The position numbers and the translations under genes were made by a program. Shown in pieces: positions 23,546 through 29,960 of a stretch of 64,000 bases of DNA. Position 1 is the first letter of the stretch, and each line of letters opens with the position of its first letter. Origin of the DNA: Pseudomonadota bacterium (GTDB taxonomy: Bacteria; Myxococcota_A; UBA796; GCA-2862545); NCBI GenBank assembly GCA_023954855.1, contig JAGSGY010000005.1, forward strand, positions 1-64,000. Direction: 5' to 3'. A model generated the notes under the pieces. The model saw only the letters and a program-made list of their open reading frames with translations, was not told the DNA's origin and made no database searches.

Positions 23546-24253
23546 ATGGCGAGCATTCGCGATCTCTTTGGTGCGTGGGCAAGTCGGGCGGACAAACGCC
23601 TGGTCGGTCAGCTTGTGGCCGCTGTGTCTGTCGATGCGCCGAGCATGCGCACGCGTCTGCGCGGTGCCAGCCGTCCGTTTCTCGACGTCGATGGCTCCGA
23701 GCGGCCGTCGCTTGCAGAGGTCGAGATGACCGCGCTGCATGTGGTTCGTCAGAGTCGAGTTCGCGTGGGTGCGTTCGGCGGCATGGTGTCCCTGGCGGGC
23801 GCGTTGTCGGTGCCTCCCGAGGTGCTCGCCACCGGAGTCGCGGCGCTTCGCCTCGCACAGCGCTTGGCCGTTGTGTACGGCTTCGATCCCGACACCGACC
23901 GCGGCGAGATGGCCGTCTTTCAGGCCCTTGCCGCAGGCTTTGAGGTTCGCCTTCCCGCTAGGGGAACCGTCGGGGTGCGGGTCAGCGACCTGCCGCGAGT
24001 CATGCTCGACACCGTCGACACCGATGTGCAGAGTGCGGGTGGCAGCCTTGCGACCTCGGTCGTCAAACAGAGCGCGTTGCTGGTCGGACGGCGTGTGACC
24101 CGTCTCGTGCCCGTGGTCTTTTCGGGGTGGGCGGCGGTGGCGGCACGCGATCGGATGGACGACATCGGACGCCGCATGCTCGTCGTGTTTCGCCGTCTCG
24201 CCGAGGCGCCAGCCGTCGATGGCGATGTCGAGGACGCCATCGAGGTCGCGTGA
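23546..24253 (+). CDS. EcsC family protein
   Basis: A 235-residue protein. The segment AFGGMVSLAGALSVPPEVLA, then LRLAQRLAVVYGFDPDTDRG, matches the EcsC family core. Two hydrophobic stretches lie near residues 75-115. EcsC-type proteins are widespread and associated with membranes and secretion, but their biochemical role is unclear. Its stop overlaps the GTG of the FAN1-like nuclease (GTGA), so the two are translationally coupled. Confidence 0.75.
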   Translation: MASIRDLFGAWASRADKRLVGQLVAAVSVDAPSMRTRLRGASRPFLDVDGSERPSLAEVEMTALHVVRQSRVRVGAFGGMVSLAGALSVPPEVLATGVAALRLAQRLAVVYGFDPDTDRGEMAVFQALAAGFEVRLPARGTVGVRVSDLPRVMLDTVDTDVQSAGGSLATSVVKQSALLVGRRVTRLVPVVFSGWAAVAARDRMDDIGRRMLVVFRRLAEAPAVDGDVEDAIEVA

Positions 24254-25905
24254 GCGTCGACTGGGATCTGCCCGTCCACGACTTCTTCGAGATCCTCGAC
24301 TTGGGCCTGGCTCGAGGCGCGAATCTGCTGACGGCCGGTGAGCTGAGCGTCGTCCGCCGCATGCGAGCCCTCGTGGATGAACAGGCTCGGGTCTTCGCCC
24401 GCCTGTCCGGTCGCAAGCGCAAGGTCTTCGCGGTGGATCGCCTCGAATTTGCAGGGGTGGCGGACTGTGGCGTAGCGGTCGATGCGCTCGTGGATGCGGG
24501 CCTACTCACGCGCTTTGTGCCCTGGCCTGGACGCCTCGAAGTGCTGACCGTTGACGAACTGAAGGCCGCATGCCGCCGAGAGAAGCTTCGCGTCGGCGGA
24601 CGGCGGGATGCACTGGTGGAGCGTGTTGAGGGGCTTCGTGTTGGAAGGGAGCGGGAGGTGGTCTCGCTCTGCCACGTTGGGCTGATTCGTCGCCTGGAAC
24701 GCTTTGCCCTCGGGCGGATCTACGCGGACCGGAGTCAATGGGTCGTCGAACGGCTCGGGATGGTGCGGTGGGCCGAGTACAAGCGCACCCTCGGTGTGGC
24801 GCTGTTCCCGACCCGTCGTGACCTTCTGCGGTGGGAGGCGGTGCTGGCGGCAGAGCACCCTGTCGAGGATGCGCTTGCCTTGCTCGAGGATCCCACGCGC
24901 GTCTGGCCGCCGGGACGGTTGGACCCTCGCCGTCGCCTGCGAAGGTCGATCTTCGAGGCCATTCGTACGATCGAGCGAGAGGGGGCCTTCGGCCGTGCCG
25001 AGGCCCTGTACAAGCGCTTGGCTCTCTGGCTTCCGGCGGGCAGCGCCGCAGTACGGCTGTCCCGCGTCATCGAGCATCAGGGCCGGGGCACAGAGGCGCT
25101 GTGGGTGCTGCAGGAGGCCAGGTCCGAGGCGCGTCTGGGGGACCGCATCGCCTCTGAGCGCGCGGGTCGGCGAGTCGCCAAGTCTCTGGGTTTGGCGTGG
25201 GCGCCGTCCCGGCCTCTCCTGGTGCCCAAGGAAAGACGACTCCGGCTCAGCCCAGCACCTGCGGAAGGGGGCCGGCCGCGTTGGGAAGGAGGGCTCGCCG
25301 TCGAGGAGGCGGTCGCGTCTCGCCTCATCGCTTCAGGTCGCCGCGTGCTGACCGCGGAGGGACCACTGTGGCGCACACTGTTCGCTCTGCTCTTCGCCGA
25401 GACCTACTTCCTCCCCGTACCCGGCCAGCTGCCGGTGCCCTTTCTGTCCGGACCCCTCGACCTTGCCACCCCGCAGTTCCGGGAGCGCAGAGCCGATGCG
25501 GTGGCCACCGTTCTTGCGGGCGTCCGAGCGGGGGAGGCTGGCGATCGGCTCGGCGTCGCGGTGCAGCACTGGTGGGGGGTTCGCCTGTCCGGAGCGCGTT
25601 GGGACTTGGCGACACCTGAAGAGCTGATTGCACTGGGAAGTGGATTCAAGCCGGCTGCTCTCGCGGCGTTGCTCGAGCACCTGCTCGATGAAGGCCTCCG
25701 AGCCGCTGCAGGGCTTCCCGACCTTGTCGTCCTCGCAGGCGATGCCGTTCGCCTTGGCGATGCCCACCCGTCACGCGTCGGGCAAGGCGTCCTGCTGGTC
25801 GAGGTGAAGGGACCGAGTGACAGCCTTCGCGATGAACAGCGCGCGTGGAATCATCGTCTGCTCAGCGCCGGAGCCACTGTCGAAGTGTGGAACGTCCGAA
25901 GCTAG
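24250..25905 (+). CDS. FAN1-like VRR-NUC nuclease
   Basis: A 551-residue nuclease. A SAP-like DNA-binding motif (VDELKAACRREKLRVGGRRD) is near residues 100-125. A helical TPR-like middle (about 210-330) follows, then a C-terminal VRR-NUC domain whose PD-(D/E)xK residues are D491 (GLPDLVV), E518 and K520 (LVEVKG), with the QRAWN helix after them. This order is that of FAN1, a structure-specific nuclease that repairs DNA interstrand crosslinks. The bacterial role is inferred. GTG start; the Gly/Arg-rich upstream extension of the frame lies inside the EcsC gene and is not used. Confidence 0.87.
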   Translation: MSVDWDLPVHDFFEILDLGLARGANLLTAGELSVVRRMRALVDEQARVFARLSGRKRKVFAVDRLEFAGVADCGVAVDALVDAGLLTRFVPWPGRLEVLTVDELKAACRREKLRVGGRRDALVERVEGLRVGREREVVSLCHVGLIRRLERFALGRIYADRSQWVVERLGMVRWAEYKRTLGVALFPTRRDLLRWEAVLAAEHPVEDALALLEDPTRVWPPGRLDPRRRLRRSIFEAIRTIEREGAFGRAEALYKRLALWLPAGSAAVRLSRVIEHQGRGTEALWVLQEARSEARLGDRIASERAGRRVAKSLGLAWAPSRPLLVPKERRLRLSPAPAEGGRPRWEGGLAVEEAVASRLIASGRRVLTAEGPLWRTLFALLFAETYFLPVPGQLPVPFLSGPLDLATPQFRERRADAVATVLAGVRAGEAGDRLGVAVQHWWGVRLSGARWDLATPEELIALGSGFKPAALAALLEHLLDEGLRAAAGLPDLVVLAGDAVRLGDAHPSRVGQGVLLVEVKGPSDSLRDEQRAWNHRLLSAGATVEVWNVRS

Positions 25906-25921: not shown

Positions 25922-25948
25922 AAAAAAACTCCCCACCGAGGTGAGGAG
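25922..25948 (-). terminator. Intrinsic terminator of the structured RNA
   Basis: On the minus strand an 8-bp stem (arms 25929-25936 and 25941-25948, one G-U pair) closes a 4-base loop and is followed at once by seven T residues (25922-25928). The direction fits only minus-strand transcription, that is the RNA starting near 26223. It does not terminate the FAN1 gene. Confidence 0.9.
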
Positions 25949-26223
25949 CTCCGGGTTCGAAACGTCTACGAGGACGGATTCTTGGAGGTTGCTGCGTAGG
26001 GAACTCGTCCCAGTCCGCGCGGTACATTCGCGATGGACAGGGGTGATGCAACGAACCCGGAGCGATTGGAGTGGAGGAGAATCGCTCGACTTGGCGTCTG
26101 CACGTTTGGTGCTTCCAGAGCCACCTGGCTCACCCCCAGGAGTCTGGGGCACCGGGATGTTTCCATCCGGTCCGCGACGATGCCGTATCGGGCGATTTCT
26201 TCCATCCCCTCACCTCTCGGTGT
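25922..26223 (-). ncRNA. Candidate structured non-coding RNA, about 300 nt, class not recognised
   Basis: A transcript bounded by a strong promoter and an intrinsic terminator. Minus-strand hairpins in order, plus-strand coordinates: 26152-26159/26164-26170 with GAAA tetraloop (one bulge); 26134-26139/26144-26149; 26118-26122/26127-26131; 26100-26103/26109-26112; 26060-26067/26080-26087, a perfect 8-bp stem with the 12-base loop CUCCUCCACUCC; 26013-26021/26029-26038; 25999-26002/26008-26011. The 5' end (26208-26222) can pair with the 3' end (25934-25946) over about 13 bp with a two-base bulge. None of RNase P, tmRNA, SRP or 6S RNA signatures was found. An overlapping 79-codon frame has poor codon bias and is rejected. 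The C-rich loop could pair with Shine-Dalgarno sites. Confidence 0.7.
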
Positions 26224-26229
26224 GAACAC

Positions 26230-26283
26230 AGTATAGCAACGCGGTTCATGAATTCAAGGCTATTTGGACTTTTTTCATTTCTG
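26230..26283 (-). promoter_or_regulatory. Strong sigma-70-type promoter with UP-like element
   Basis: Minus strand: -10 TATACT at 26230-26235 and -35 TTGAAT at 26252-26257, 16-base spacer. An A/T-rich stretch (GAAAAAAGTCC and flanks, 26258-26283) sits directly upstream, as in stable-RNA promoters. Such A/T richness stands out in this GC-rich window. Predicted start near 26223. No protein gene follows before the terminator. Confidence 0.8.
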
Positions 26284-26383: not shown

Positions 26384-27016
26384 CTATTCGCGGATGGTGA
26401 CGCGTGTTCCGTGTGGCGCAAGGTCCCAGAGCTCTTCGATGTGGGGGTTGTCGAGAGCAATGCAACCCAGTGTCCAATCCGCGCTGCTTCCGCCACCGTG
26501 GATGCCGATGGCGCCTCCGAGAGTGGTGTTCCAAGGGGGCTTTGTCTCATTTGCCTCGGACTCCGCAATCGCGTCGGATTGGGTCTCGGTGAGCCAGCCT
26601 CGCTCCATTCCCCGTTCGGCGTCGGCGGCGTCCGGGTACGAAATCCCGAGGAACAAGTGGTAGAGCGACTTCGGATTGCGCGTCACAATCCTAAAAGTCC
26701 CATTTGGTGTCTTTTGATCACCCTGCCGAATCTTGTCTCCGGCCGGTGCTCCGCCCAGTCCGATGGGCCAATTCACGAGAGTCGTGTCGCTGGACAGGAC
26801 GCTGAGCACCCGGTCCGACTTGTCGATTTGGATCCACAAGTCCGGTGGGGGCCAGGCGAGTCCGTGCTGGTCGGCGCCTTCGCGAATCGTCGTCGGCGCT
26901 GGCGGTTCTGCCTCCTCCGCCTCGGGCGCCAGCGCATGCGGCTCCGGAGTCAGAGCGGGTGTCTCCACCTCGGTGGGTTCGGCGGCACATGCGATCAGAA
27001 AGGGCAAAATGAGCAT
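26384..27016 (-). CDS. L,D-transpeptidase (YkuD) lipoprotein
   Basis: A 210-residue lipoprotein: signal MLILPFLIACAAE with lipobox LIAC. A proline/glutamate-rich linker (about 20-50) leads to a YkuD domain (IQIDKSDRVLSV, then QKTPNGTFRI). The catalytic motif is IHGGGSSADWTLGCIALDN, giving His and the Cys nucleophile. The family makes 3-3 peptidoglycan crosslinks or attaches proteins to the wall, in the periplasm. The ATG at 27016 is chosen for the signal; the longer frame is Ser/Arg-rich and overlaps the adjacent gene. The intact Cys and His argue for an active enzyme. Confidence 0.88.
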   Translation of the reverse strand: MLILPFLIACAAEPTEVETPALTPEPHALAPEAEEAEPPAPTTIREGADQHGLAWPPPDLWIQIDKSDRVLSVLSSDTTLVNWPIGLGGAPAGDKIRQGDQKTPNGTFRIVTRNPKSLYHLFLGISYPDAADAERGMERGWLTETQSDAIAESEANETKPPWNTTLGGAIGIHGGGSSADWTLGCIALDNPHIEELWDLAPHGTRVTIRE

Positions 27017-27053
27017 GTCTGGACAGACCCCCGCGGCGGCCCGAGGTTCCAGA

Positions 27054-27476
27054 CTAGGCTCCGCGTGTGGCGTACCAGAGCTTGGCCTGCTCGAATCCCG
27101 CGACGAGCGAGCGCCAGACCTCTTCATCCAGCTGCCAGTAGGCGGCGTAGCACCAGAACAACACGGCGAAGACCAGGGTGTGCACGAAGACCATTGGGGT
27201 CGGCAACGGCAGGCGCTGCACGGCCTTGTGCGTGGTCGTGAGACTCCAGCGGACCTGTTCCTGCACGTAGAACACCAGCCCGCCGAACAGGCCGAGAATC
27301 AGGGCCATGCCGAAGAGGACGCGCAGTGGGGCCGGCAGGTTCGCGTCCGTCAGGACGAAGTCGCGCGCAAACATCTGCACGAGGCCAAGGACCAGCACGG
27401 TCTCGGAGAGCAGGAGGCGTCGGTGGGAGAGGAGAGGGCGGCGCTTGGGGGTGCTCCGCGCGGAGGAAGAGGCCAT
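27054..27476 (-). CDS. Small membrane protein
   Basis: A 140-residue protein with a basic N-terminus and three likely membrane helices: LLLSETVLVLGLVQMF, VLFGMALILGLFGGLVFYV and MVFVHTLVFAVLFWCYAAYW. It ends in a short soluble part (EVWRSLVAGFEQ). Family not recognised. It is 37 bp upstream of the L,D-transpeptidase gene on the same strand and could be co-transcribed with it. Confidence 0.6.
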   Translation of the reverse strand: MASSSARSTPKRRPLLSHRRLLLSETVLVLGLVQMFARDFVLTDANLPAPLRVLFGMALILGLFGGLVFYVQEQVRWSLTTTHKAVQRLPLPTPMVFVHTLVFAVLFWCYAAYWQLDEEVWRSLVAGFEQAKLWYATRGA

Positions 27477-27505: not shown

Positions 27506-29293
27506 CTACAGGTCGTATGCGCAGCGCACGCCCGCGAGCGTGGGTGGGACTTGTTCCTCGGTGGGTTCAATGCGTCCGCGTCGACCGAGTTCCGAGCTAC
27601 CGGAGTCTGCGGACCCTCCGAGCAGAAGCCCCTCAGAGCTCCACTCCCAGGCATTTCCAGCGAGATCGAGCACGCCTTCTTCGCTGGTGCCGAGCGGCGT
27701 GCTGCCCACAGGGGCCAATCCGTCGCAGCCGAGGGCGATAGCGTGCGCACATGTCGGGCTGTCCTGGCCCCATGGCCATGGTCCTCCGGCGGTGGCGGCT
27801 CGGTATTCGGCCTCGCTCGGTAGGCGGCCGCCCGCCCAGGTGCAGAAGGTCGAGGCTTCGTCGAAGCTGAGGCCGGTGACCGGAAGCTCGCCGGTCTCGC
27901 CTTTGTCCTCGCACTGCTCTGAGGTGACGCACTCGGCCCACCGGCGCAGCGTGACCTCGTTGCGGTCGAGCATAAACGAGGGGACCGAGACGTTGTCCCC
28001 CGCGAGAGTGACGATGCGGCCCGGGATGGTGATCTGTCCGTCGGTGCCAAGAAGACCAGCCTGCCGCACGGCGCCCTCGATCTCGGCGCGGAACATCCAG
28101 CCGCCCGCCGCGGCGCCGACGACCGCCGTCAGGGCAATCCACAGTCCCCATCGCGGCCCGTCACTCACGAGCGACGCCAGCTCACCACGGTCTGTAAGTG
28201 CATCGAGCTCCATCGTGCTGCCGACCAGTGAGCGGAGGCGGTCCTGTCGCTGGGACGAGGTGGTGGCCTGCACAATGGACTGGAGGTCCTCGAGTTGCTC
28301 GGCCAGCTCTTCGGCGTCGCGGTAACGGTTTGGCGGCGAGGGGTGGGACGCGGGTGAGAGCCCACGCACGAGCAGGTTCCAGCAACCCCGCTGGAGCATT
28401 TGAATCCGCCGTGGGTCGAGCCCCGCGAGCCCAGCCAGCTGGGCGATGCCGCCGTCGAGGGCCTTTCGGTCGCCTTTCGTCAGCGCACTGCGTCCTGTGA
28501 AGTCGACCAAGTCGGCCGCGCTCGCACCCTTTCGCTTGGTGTGGAATGCCGCTCGCAGCGTGCGGGACTCGGCGGCCTCGGTGCTGGTCGCCTTGCGCGC
28601 CGTCTCCCAGAGCTCGCGGCCGCGTGACGTGAGCAACCCACGAGGATCGGCCTGGTATGCGGGGCGGGCCTTGGTCAGTCCGGCGAACAAGATCACGCAC
28701 AATGCGTAGGTATCCCAGGTCGGATCCGGCATGGCGCGACCGGGGAGGATCTGGTCGAAGGGCGCCCACATCGGCGTGCCGAACACGGCCAGTTCCACCG
28801 CGCGCAGGCCGTCGATGCCCATCGCACCGCCGAAGTCGCCGAGCACCAGCTGGCCGTCGTGATCGAGGAACACGTTCTCGGGCTTCACATCGCGATGCAG
28901 CATGGCCGCCCCACCATGTCTGACCCGGTGCACCGCCGAGAGAATGCGTGCGAGCTGGCCGCACTTTTCGAGGATCTCTCCGAGAGAGTCGGCGGTGGGG
29001 GCGTCGAGCACGCCCTGGAGCCACTCGCCCAGGTGGCGGGGGTAGCGAGGCATCACCAGCGCCGGCCGTCCCTGAATGCGTACGAAGTCTAGGACCTCGA
29101 CCACACCAATCACATCGGCCTTGGCGCAGGCCTTGAGCATCTCAACTTCCGAAGCGAGGGCGGCCGCGGCGCTCGGGTGCTCCGAGGCCACCTTGACCGC
29201 GACCTCGTGACCATCACTGCGGGTCGCGAAGTACACCTCGCCCTGCGCGCCACGGGCGTGGGGTTTGGCTGGGAGGGTGTAGGTGTAGGACAC
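27506..29293 (-). CDS. Ser/Thr protein kinase fused to a formylglycine-generating-enzyme-like domain
   Basis: A 595-residue membrane protein. A Hanks-type kinase occupies about 1-260: GAQGEVYF loop (15-22), Lys34 in VAVKV, catalytic HRDVKPEN (133-140) and DFG (153-155). A linker of about 150 residues is followed by one membrane helix (WIALTAVVGAAAGGWMF) and an FGE-sulfatase domain (SFMLDRNEVTLRRWAECV, GGRLPSEAEYRAA, DLAGNAWEW) that would lie outside the membrane. The FGE part is probably a sensor or binding module rather than an active oxygenase, since the two catalytic cysteines of true FGE are not evident. GTG start chosen because coaB diverges from 29343. Confidence 0.85.
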   Translation of the reverse strand: MSYTYTLPAKPHARGAQGEVYFATRSDGHEVAVKVASEHPSAAAALASEVEMLKACAKADVIGVVEVLDFVRIQGRPALVMPRYPRHLGEWLQGVLDAPTADSLGEILEKCGQLARILSAVHRVRHGGAAMLHRDVKPENVFLDHDGQLVLGDFGGAMGIDGLRAVELAVFGTPMWAPFDQILPGRAMPDPTWDTYALCVILFAGLTKARPAYQADPRGLLTSRGRELWETARKATSTEAAESRTLRAAFHTKRKGASAADLVDFTGRSALTKGDRKALDGGIAQLAGLAGLDPRRIQMLQRGCWNLLVRGLSPASHPSPPNRYRDAEELAEQLEDLQSIVQATTSSQRQDRLRSLVGSTMELDALTDRGELASLVSDGPRWGLWIALTAVVGAAAGGWMFRAEIEGAVRQAGLLGTDGQITIPGRIVTLAGDNVSVPSFMLDRNEVTLRRWAECVTSEQCEDKGETGELPVTGLSFDEASTFCTWAGGRLPSEAEYRAATAGGPWPWGQDSPTCAHAIALGCDGLAPVGSTPLGTSEEGVLDLAGNAWEWSSEGLLLGGSADSGSSELGRRGRIEPTEEQVPPTLAGVRCAYDL

Positions 29294-29342
29294 AGATTCG
29301 CTCTTGGGTGACGGCGAGATAATCTCATGCCCTGGAGGCGAG

Positions 29343-29960
29343 ATGGATGTCCTGGTAACCGCAGGTGCGACGCGCAACCCGATCGATGCGATGCGCCACG
29401 TGTCCGCGAACTCCTCCGGACGCACCGGAGTGGGGCTTGCCAGGGCTTGGGCGGCCACGGGCTGCTCGGTCCACGTGCTCGGCTCGCCAGAGGCTGCGCT
29501 ACGCGCGGAAGGGCTTTCCACCGAGGTCTTTGGCTCCACCCGCGACTTGATGGCGCGGATGCATCAGTGGGTGCAGCGGCATCCAGAGGGTGCGGTGGTC
29601 CATGCGGCGGCGGTCGGCGACTACGAGGTCGCAGACTCTGAGGGAGGCAAGATTCCGTCCGGACAAGACGAGGTGGTCATTCGCCTTCAGCCCACGCCCA
29701 AGATCGCCGATGCGGTGCGCGGCTGGGGGCTGACCGGTCTGCTGGTCACCTTCAAGGCGGCCGGTCCAGGCACGACGTCAGAGGGCTTGGTTCTCCTCGC
29801 CAGCAAACAGGCCAAGCGCACGGGCTCGAATCTCGTGTTCGCGAATGTGCTGGGGCGGTTGGCAAGCGACGTGGCGCTGGTCGGCGATGAGGTTCGCTGG
29901 TTCGAGCACCGGGCCGATGCCCTCGAGGCGCTCGTGGGCTGGCTCACCAGCGCGCGGTGA
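29343..29960 (+). CDS. CoaB-like phosphopantothenate-cysteine ligase domain protein
   Basis: A 205-residue protein of the CoaB (C-terminal Dfp) family. In coenzyme A synthesis it joins 4'-phosphopantothenate and cysteine, with CTP in most bacteria. Visible motifs: VLVTAGATRNPIDAMRHVSA, AAAVGDYEVAD, GGKIPS, LQPTPKIAD, VTFKAAGP and NLVFANVLG. It lacks the N-terminal flavin decarboxylase (CoaC), so it is a stand-alone ligase of the short type; a separate CoaC gene is expected elsewhere. The ATG at 29343 is preceded by GGAGG. It overlaps the end of the next minus-strand gene by 17 bp. Confidence 0.85.
   Translation: MDVLVTAGATRNPIDAMRHVSANSSGRTGVGLARAWAATGCSVHVLGSPEAALRAEGLSTEVFGSTRDLMARMHQWVQRHPEGAVVHAAAVGDYEVADSEGGKIPSGQDEVVIRLQPTPKIADAVRGWGLTGLLVTFKAAGPGTTSEGLVLLASKQAKRTGSNLVFANVLGRLASDVALVGDEVRWFEHRADALEALVGWLTSAR

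Follow-up and report, generated by a model that had tools for sequence, protein, structure and literature searches.

The window, a stretch of 64,000 nt, carries on its minus strand a real structured RNA of about 300 nt that is restricted to one genus, lies outside Rfam and probably doubles as the messenger of a small protein; a purely noncoding function is a close rival. A sequence-only reading had proposed here a structured RNA of unrecognised class that carries its own promoter and terminator. The lack of any Rfam match and the presence of compensatory changes in a related genome, well above controls, both favour that proposal. As far as a simply noncoding RNA was meant, it is weakened by an ORF that follows a Shine-Dalgarno (SD) sequence and shows codon-level constraint, and 'noncoding' is not established for this RNA.

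Table 1. Features of the RNA and its promoter, in order of transcription.
Feature	Position	Strand	Description
UP-like A-rich element AAAAAAGTCCAAATAGCC	26258..26275	minus	From alignment; 1 mismatch in relative
Promoter TTGAAT-16-TATACT, TG-extended -10	26230..26257	minus	From promoter scan and alignment
Structured transcript	25922..26223	minus	Predicted start A26223 to end of U run; ~300 nt
Shine-Dalgarno GAGGUGA	26210..26216	minus	4 nt before AUG; GGUGA at equal spacing in relative
Closing helix P1, 5' arm	26208..26215	minus	Covers SD; pairs with 25939-25946 in both genomes
Candidate small ORF	25966..26205	minus	79 codons + TAG; 65 codons then TAG in relative
Central long hairpin	26108..26153	minus	Helix 7; three both-side compensated pairs in well-aligned sequence
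3' structured domain	25948..26063	minus	12-bp closing helix with one U-A to C-G compensated pair; 92% identity
Unchanged 50-nt run	25962..26011	minus	Identical in both genomes; downstream of relative's stop codon
Conserved, predicted single-stranded CAACCUCCAAGAAUCC	25976..25991	minus	Contains CCUCC; from partition function
Closing helix P1, 3' arm	25939..25946	minus	Same bases as first arm of terminator stem
Intrinsic terminator	25922..25948	minus	11-pair hairpin + U run; -17.2 kcal/mol alone

Both ends of the predicted transcript are marked by recognisable signals, as had been read from the letters alone. The promoter is the one sigma70-like site found in the surrounding 4 kb, where 0.3 would be expected, and its -10 element with the TG is identical in the relative, the metagenome-assembled genome Deltaproteobacteria bacterium M1803 (SBGP01000016; filed by NCBI under Myxococcota). 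Either genome contains this promoter pattern a single time, with no further copy in the two genomes at up to 3 mismatches. The scan that returned the promoter did not list the terminator, probably because G-U and A-U pairs extend its stem into the U run; the relative keeps a hairpin of different sequence at this place (-23.1 kcal/mol). The RNA is transcribed towards a gene for a VRR-NUC/SAP/FAN1-HTH protein (24127-25905, plus strand) and has an L,D-transpeptidase (YkuD) gene upstream (26384-27127, minus strand). No same-strand gene follows before the terminator, so the RNA is not a leader. Judged by its promoter and terminator signals, the RNA is independently transcribed.

The boundaries are echoed by the conservation profile. 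Identity to the relative is 87% in the promoter region, 93% from the start to the first codons and 92% in the 3' domain; the flanking orthologous genes show 65–72% DNA identity. Two variable stretches in the 5' domain fall to 44–48%, and the six bases between the -10 element and the start, like the DNA just outside the unit, to 0–47%. On this profile, the unit under selection extends from promoter to terminator.

The RNA is predicted to fold strongly. Its minimum free energy in the window is -137.8 kcal/mol against a mean of -113.8 kcal/mol for shuffled sequences (z = -4.8; 0 of 100 shuffles as low). The consensus of the two sequences (-103.2 kcal/mol) contains 88 pairs, of which 12 differ between the genomes at both positions and 9 at one; no pair is broken. 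Shuffled-partner controls gave 6.0 ± 1.8 both-side changes and reached 12 in 0 of 500 trials; the 12 compensated pairs compare with 4.2 in shuffles, and sliding the partners by 1–3 columns destroyed the pairing. Column shuffles put z near -7, and none of 80 did as well. For comparison, the same scoring was applied as an independent control to 44 windows of 310 columns, drawn from both strands of four genes that are orthologous between these two genomes. The stability z of the RNA was -7.4, whereas the 44 windows had a mean of 0.11, a standard deviation of 1.4 and a minimum of -2.68; the excess of compensated pairs was 3.9 standard deviations against a control maximum of 2.9. These data, which compare two sequences throughout, indicate that the RNA structure is under selection. 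The antisense strand scores z -7.9, so that the structure score is not strand-specific, and the strand was chosen by the promoter and the U run rather than by structure statistics.

The best-aligned covariation falls in the central long hairpin and in the 12-bp helix, a perfect inverted repeat (25948-25959 and 26052-26063) that closes the 3' domain. This domain alone gave a column-shuffle z of -4.5, with 0 of 200 shuffles as good. The long closing helix between the 5' and 3' ends, also noticed by the sequence-only reading, is present, and its pairs comprise 6 invariant ones, 1 with a one-sided change and 1 with a both-side change. Of the hairpins that are perfect in the window, not all persist: the GAGCC/GGCUC hairpin (~26131-26118) is broken in the relative, where a longer conserved hairpin takes its place. 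Partition function calculations leave all 16 nt of CAACCUCCAAGAAUCC unpaired in the relative and AACCUCCAA unpaired in the window RNA. The conserved CAACCUCCAAG that the 3' domain exposes might base-pair with the SD regions of other mRNAs or serve as a protein-binding site.

The RNA does not belong to a class known to Rfam. With cmscan against Rfam 15, neither the window nor the relative reached any gathering threshold, and nothing credible appeared at E up to 10; the top hit, to a vertebrate lncRNA model, scored 13.4 bits where the cut-off is 45 and is meaningless. The RNA shares a size range and an autonomous, structured nature with 6S RNA, RNase P RNA and tmRNA and differs from them in the missing Rfam match. 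RNase P RNA was considered because its own genome has no RF00010 match; the RNA itself does not match that model, and the identity was rejected because the relative carries this RNA together with a separate RNase P RNA (277 bits). The own assembly is 97% complete, and an RF00010 match is present in 11 of the 12 relatives searched, among them the congeneric genome; the gap is probably one of assembly or binning. No RF00013 match was found in the RNA, and the 6S RNA of its own genome lies elsewhere (C40:18956-19140, 67.7 bits). ARAGORN found no tmRNA gene in the window.

In everything searched, the RNA is restricted to one genus, unlike housekeeping RNAs. A DNA search of 94 genomes returned one match besides its own, at about 80% identity over about 320 nt, in M1803, the one further member of the genus in the collection. 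The locus there is syntenic and converges with the same VRR-NUC gene. A covariance model of the 3' domain, run through the family (21 genomes), the order (63) and the phylum (379), matched only these two genomes. The RNA was not found in the 377 other genomes of the phylum or in viral contigs, phages and plasmids; IMG/VR (searched by protein and two exact patterns), phage records and plasmid records gave no match. Additional matches of a 5'-domain covariance model were at chance level, the best lying inside a coding gene (genome G021). The VRR-NUC, SAP and FAN1-HTH protein, a bacterial FAN1-like nuclease, occurs in 58 of the 94 genomes, mainly of the same order and with varying neighbours; no similar RNA lies beside its gene at 28 loci from other genera.

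The sequence-only reading had seen no good gene in this stretch, which is doubtful because an ORF preceded by an SD sequence lies inside the RNA, its AUG only 18 nt downstream of the predicted start. Within the conserved blocks, 11 codons of frame 0 are changed synonymously against 5.0 expected (P 0.004) and 9 non-synonymously against 15.6 expected (P 0.0004); these blocks were picked after the alignment was seen. The synonymous excess is confined to frame 0 among the sense frames and survives dropping one partner of each covarying pair (P ~0.004). The test over the whole ORF is weaker and marginal (P 0.04–0.07). A 3-nt indel between the two genomes keeps the frame, and the spacing of the SD is optimal in both. 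Codon usage is weak: it lies among the lowest 1% of real in-frame segments, with P 0.05 for the window and 0.19 (not significant) for the relative. The predicted peptide is soluble-like with a net charge of +4. It has no relative in Pfam, NCBIfam, PHROGs or PDB, a peptide search found nothing above noise beyond the congeneric genome, and its AlphaFold model (pLDDT 49) is too poor to interpret. On balance, translation of the ORF is judged more likely than its absence.

To the features that were computed (promoter, terminator, conserved and covarying structure, synteny, codon-constraint signal and predicted SD masking), the explanation that we tentatively put first adds translation, a masking switch and a role for the 3' domain. 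It holds that one genus-restricted, autonomously transcribed RNA is at once a structured RNA and the mRNA of a protein of 65–79 amino acids. The closing helix would hold the SD and AUG in its 5' strand and take its 3' strand from the terminator arm. The start site would be fairly accessible during synthesis; completion of the 3' end would let the two ends pair, masking the start site and giving a compact, little-translated RNA, which might open on some signal, processing event or partner. The 3' domain, conserved past the relative's stop codon, would be the part that functions at the RNA level, through a bound protein or the exposed CCUCC segment. In the partition function, the 14 nt before the AUG have a mean unpaired probability of 0.15 in the full-length window RNA and 0.10 in that of the relative, against 0.37 and 0.43 with the 3' end removed. 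This lower value in the presence of the 3' end suggests, as a modest prediction, that the start site is masked once the RNA is complete. What speaks against the dual role is the sample of two sequences, the weak codon usage, the marginal whole-ORF test, the unequal ORF lengths (79 and 65 codons), the poor AlphaFold model and a peptide without relatives. A bolder version, in which about 300 nt encode a protein together with a closed, multi-domain RNA whose 3' domain has its own RNA-level function as scaffold, sensor or trans-regulator, so that the RNA is a new class of one genus, is less likely than not.

It is a serious possibility that the RNA is instead purely noncoding, a lineage-specific trans-acting sRNA or protein-binding scaffold with a fortuitous ORF; its exposed CCUCC segment might act on target mRNAs by pairing with their SD regions, or its fold could bind a protein. 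The strong covariation over the full length and the weak codon usage fit this well, as do the position of the most conserved part, mostly outside the ORF in the relative, and residues 8–22 of the ORF, which are not conserved while the hairpin there is kept. A fortuitous ORF does not, however, account for a synonymous excess in frame 0 only, an in-frame 3-nt indel and an SD correctly placed in both genomes. The codon constraint, together with a promoter, SD, ORF and terminator that are the parts of any normal gene, would suit an ordinary small-protein gene with a conserved 3' UTR, whose GC-rich mRNA folds incidentally. This is improbable: orthologous coding windows of the same two genomes never came near the structure score of the RNA, the unchanged 50-nt run lies beyond the relative's stop, and the compensated pair in the 12-bp helix costs a Ser to Pro change.

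Conservation past that stop would also be explained if programmed frameshifting extended the ORF into a longer protein, and the downstream -1 frame is plausible as protein (SSLRSNLQESVLVDVSNPELLT) and open in both genomes. We give this almost no credence: the -1 frame lacks a stop ahead of the terminator in both genomes, in the window the same holds for the other shifted frame, and the substitution pattern there favours no frame. A cis-acting element, be it a leader or riboswitch, an antisense regulator of the convergent VRR-NUC gene or a retron msr-msd, is very unlikely. In favour of such an element, the locus converges with the VRR-NUC/SAP/FAN1-like gene, whose 3' end is overlapped by the terminator in the relative, but those other members of the family and order that were examined have no such RNA beside this gene. 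A leader would need the same-strand gene that is missing before the terminator, and a scan of eight flanking genes against Pfam showed no reverse transcriptase domain, which speaks against the retron.

Conserved RNA structure, a mark of dual-function small RNAs, is found here, and at least ~10% of bacterial sRNAs are predicted to have a coding ORF (PMC5521070). With SgrS/SgrT and RNAIII/hld the RNA shares its shortness, autonomous transcription, structured domains and a small ORF behind an SD. It showed no homology to that class in sequence or structure, and its ORF lies within the main fold, the SD being covered by the closing helix. In hok-type mRNAs, the start site is masked by fold-back. 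Masking of the SD by the 3' end has been shown experimentally for icaR mRNA (PMC3868564). The RNA resembles both in having a 3' end complementary to its own SD region, and a hok-like fold-back over the start site is predicted in both genomes, with a partial effect. It differs in its far more elaborate fold and its soluble-like peptide, the products of icaR and hok being a repressor and a membrane toxin, respectively. A hok-like type I toxin peptide was rejected, the maximum 19-residue hydropathy being 0.86 in the window and 0.34 in the relative, with no 19-residue window above a KD value of 0.9; no antisense antitoxin was identified for this RNA.

Pipelines for orphan ncRNAs in GC-rich intergenic regions rest on similarity to other bacterial genomes (PMC8632094, PMC11109978). 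The candidates from those studies are likewise GC-rich, covarying and of no known class; the RNA described here differs in having two known examples and a likely ORF. Lineage-restricted RNAs of this size can escape catalogues that need a wide phylogenetic spread, and the present one is a clear example: a complex structured RNA, restricted to a single genus of uncultured bacteria and conserved more strongly than the surrounding genes. Provided that the RNA is translated as well as structurally constrained, it would offer a compact natural test of how one sequence meets protein and RNA constraints, and also a test case for a 5'-3' helix that gates a start codon.

The surroundings of the RNA hold some further features. 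The relative lacks the YkuD gene at the syntenic position, which indicates that it was gained or lost next to the RNA. On the same strand, 27506-29539 encodes a protein kinase domain fused to an FGE-sulfatase (formylglycine-generating-like) domain. In the promoter region (26258-26230, minus strand), the overlapping palindromes TTGAATTCAA and TTCATGAA are partly kept in the relative and are a possible operator.
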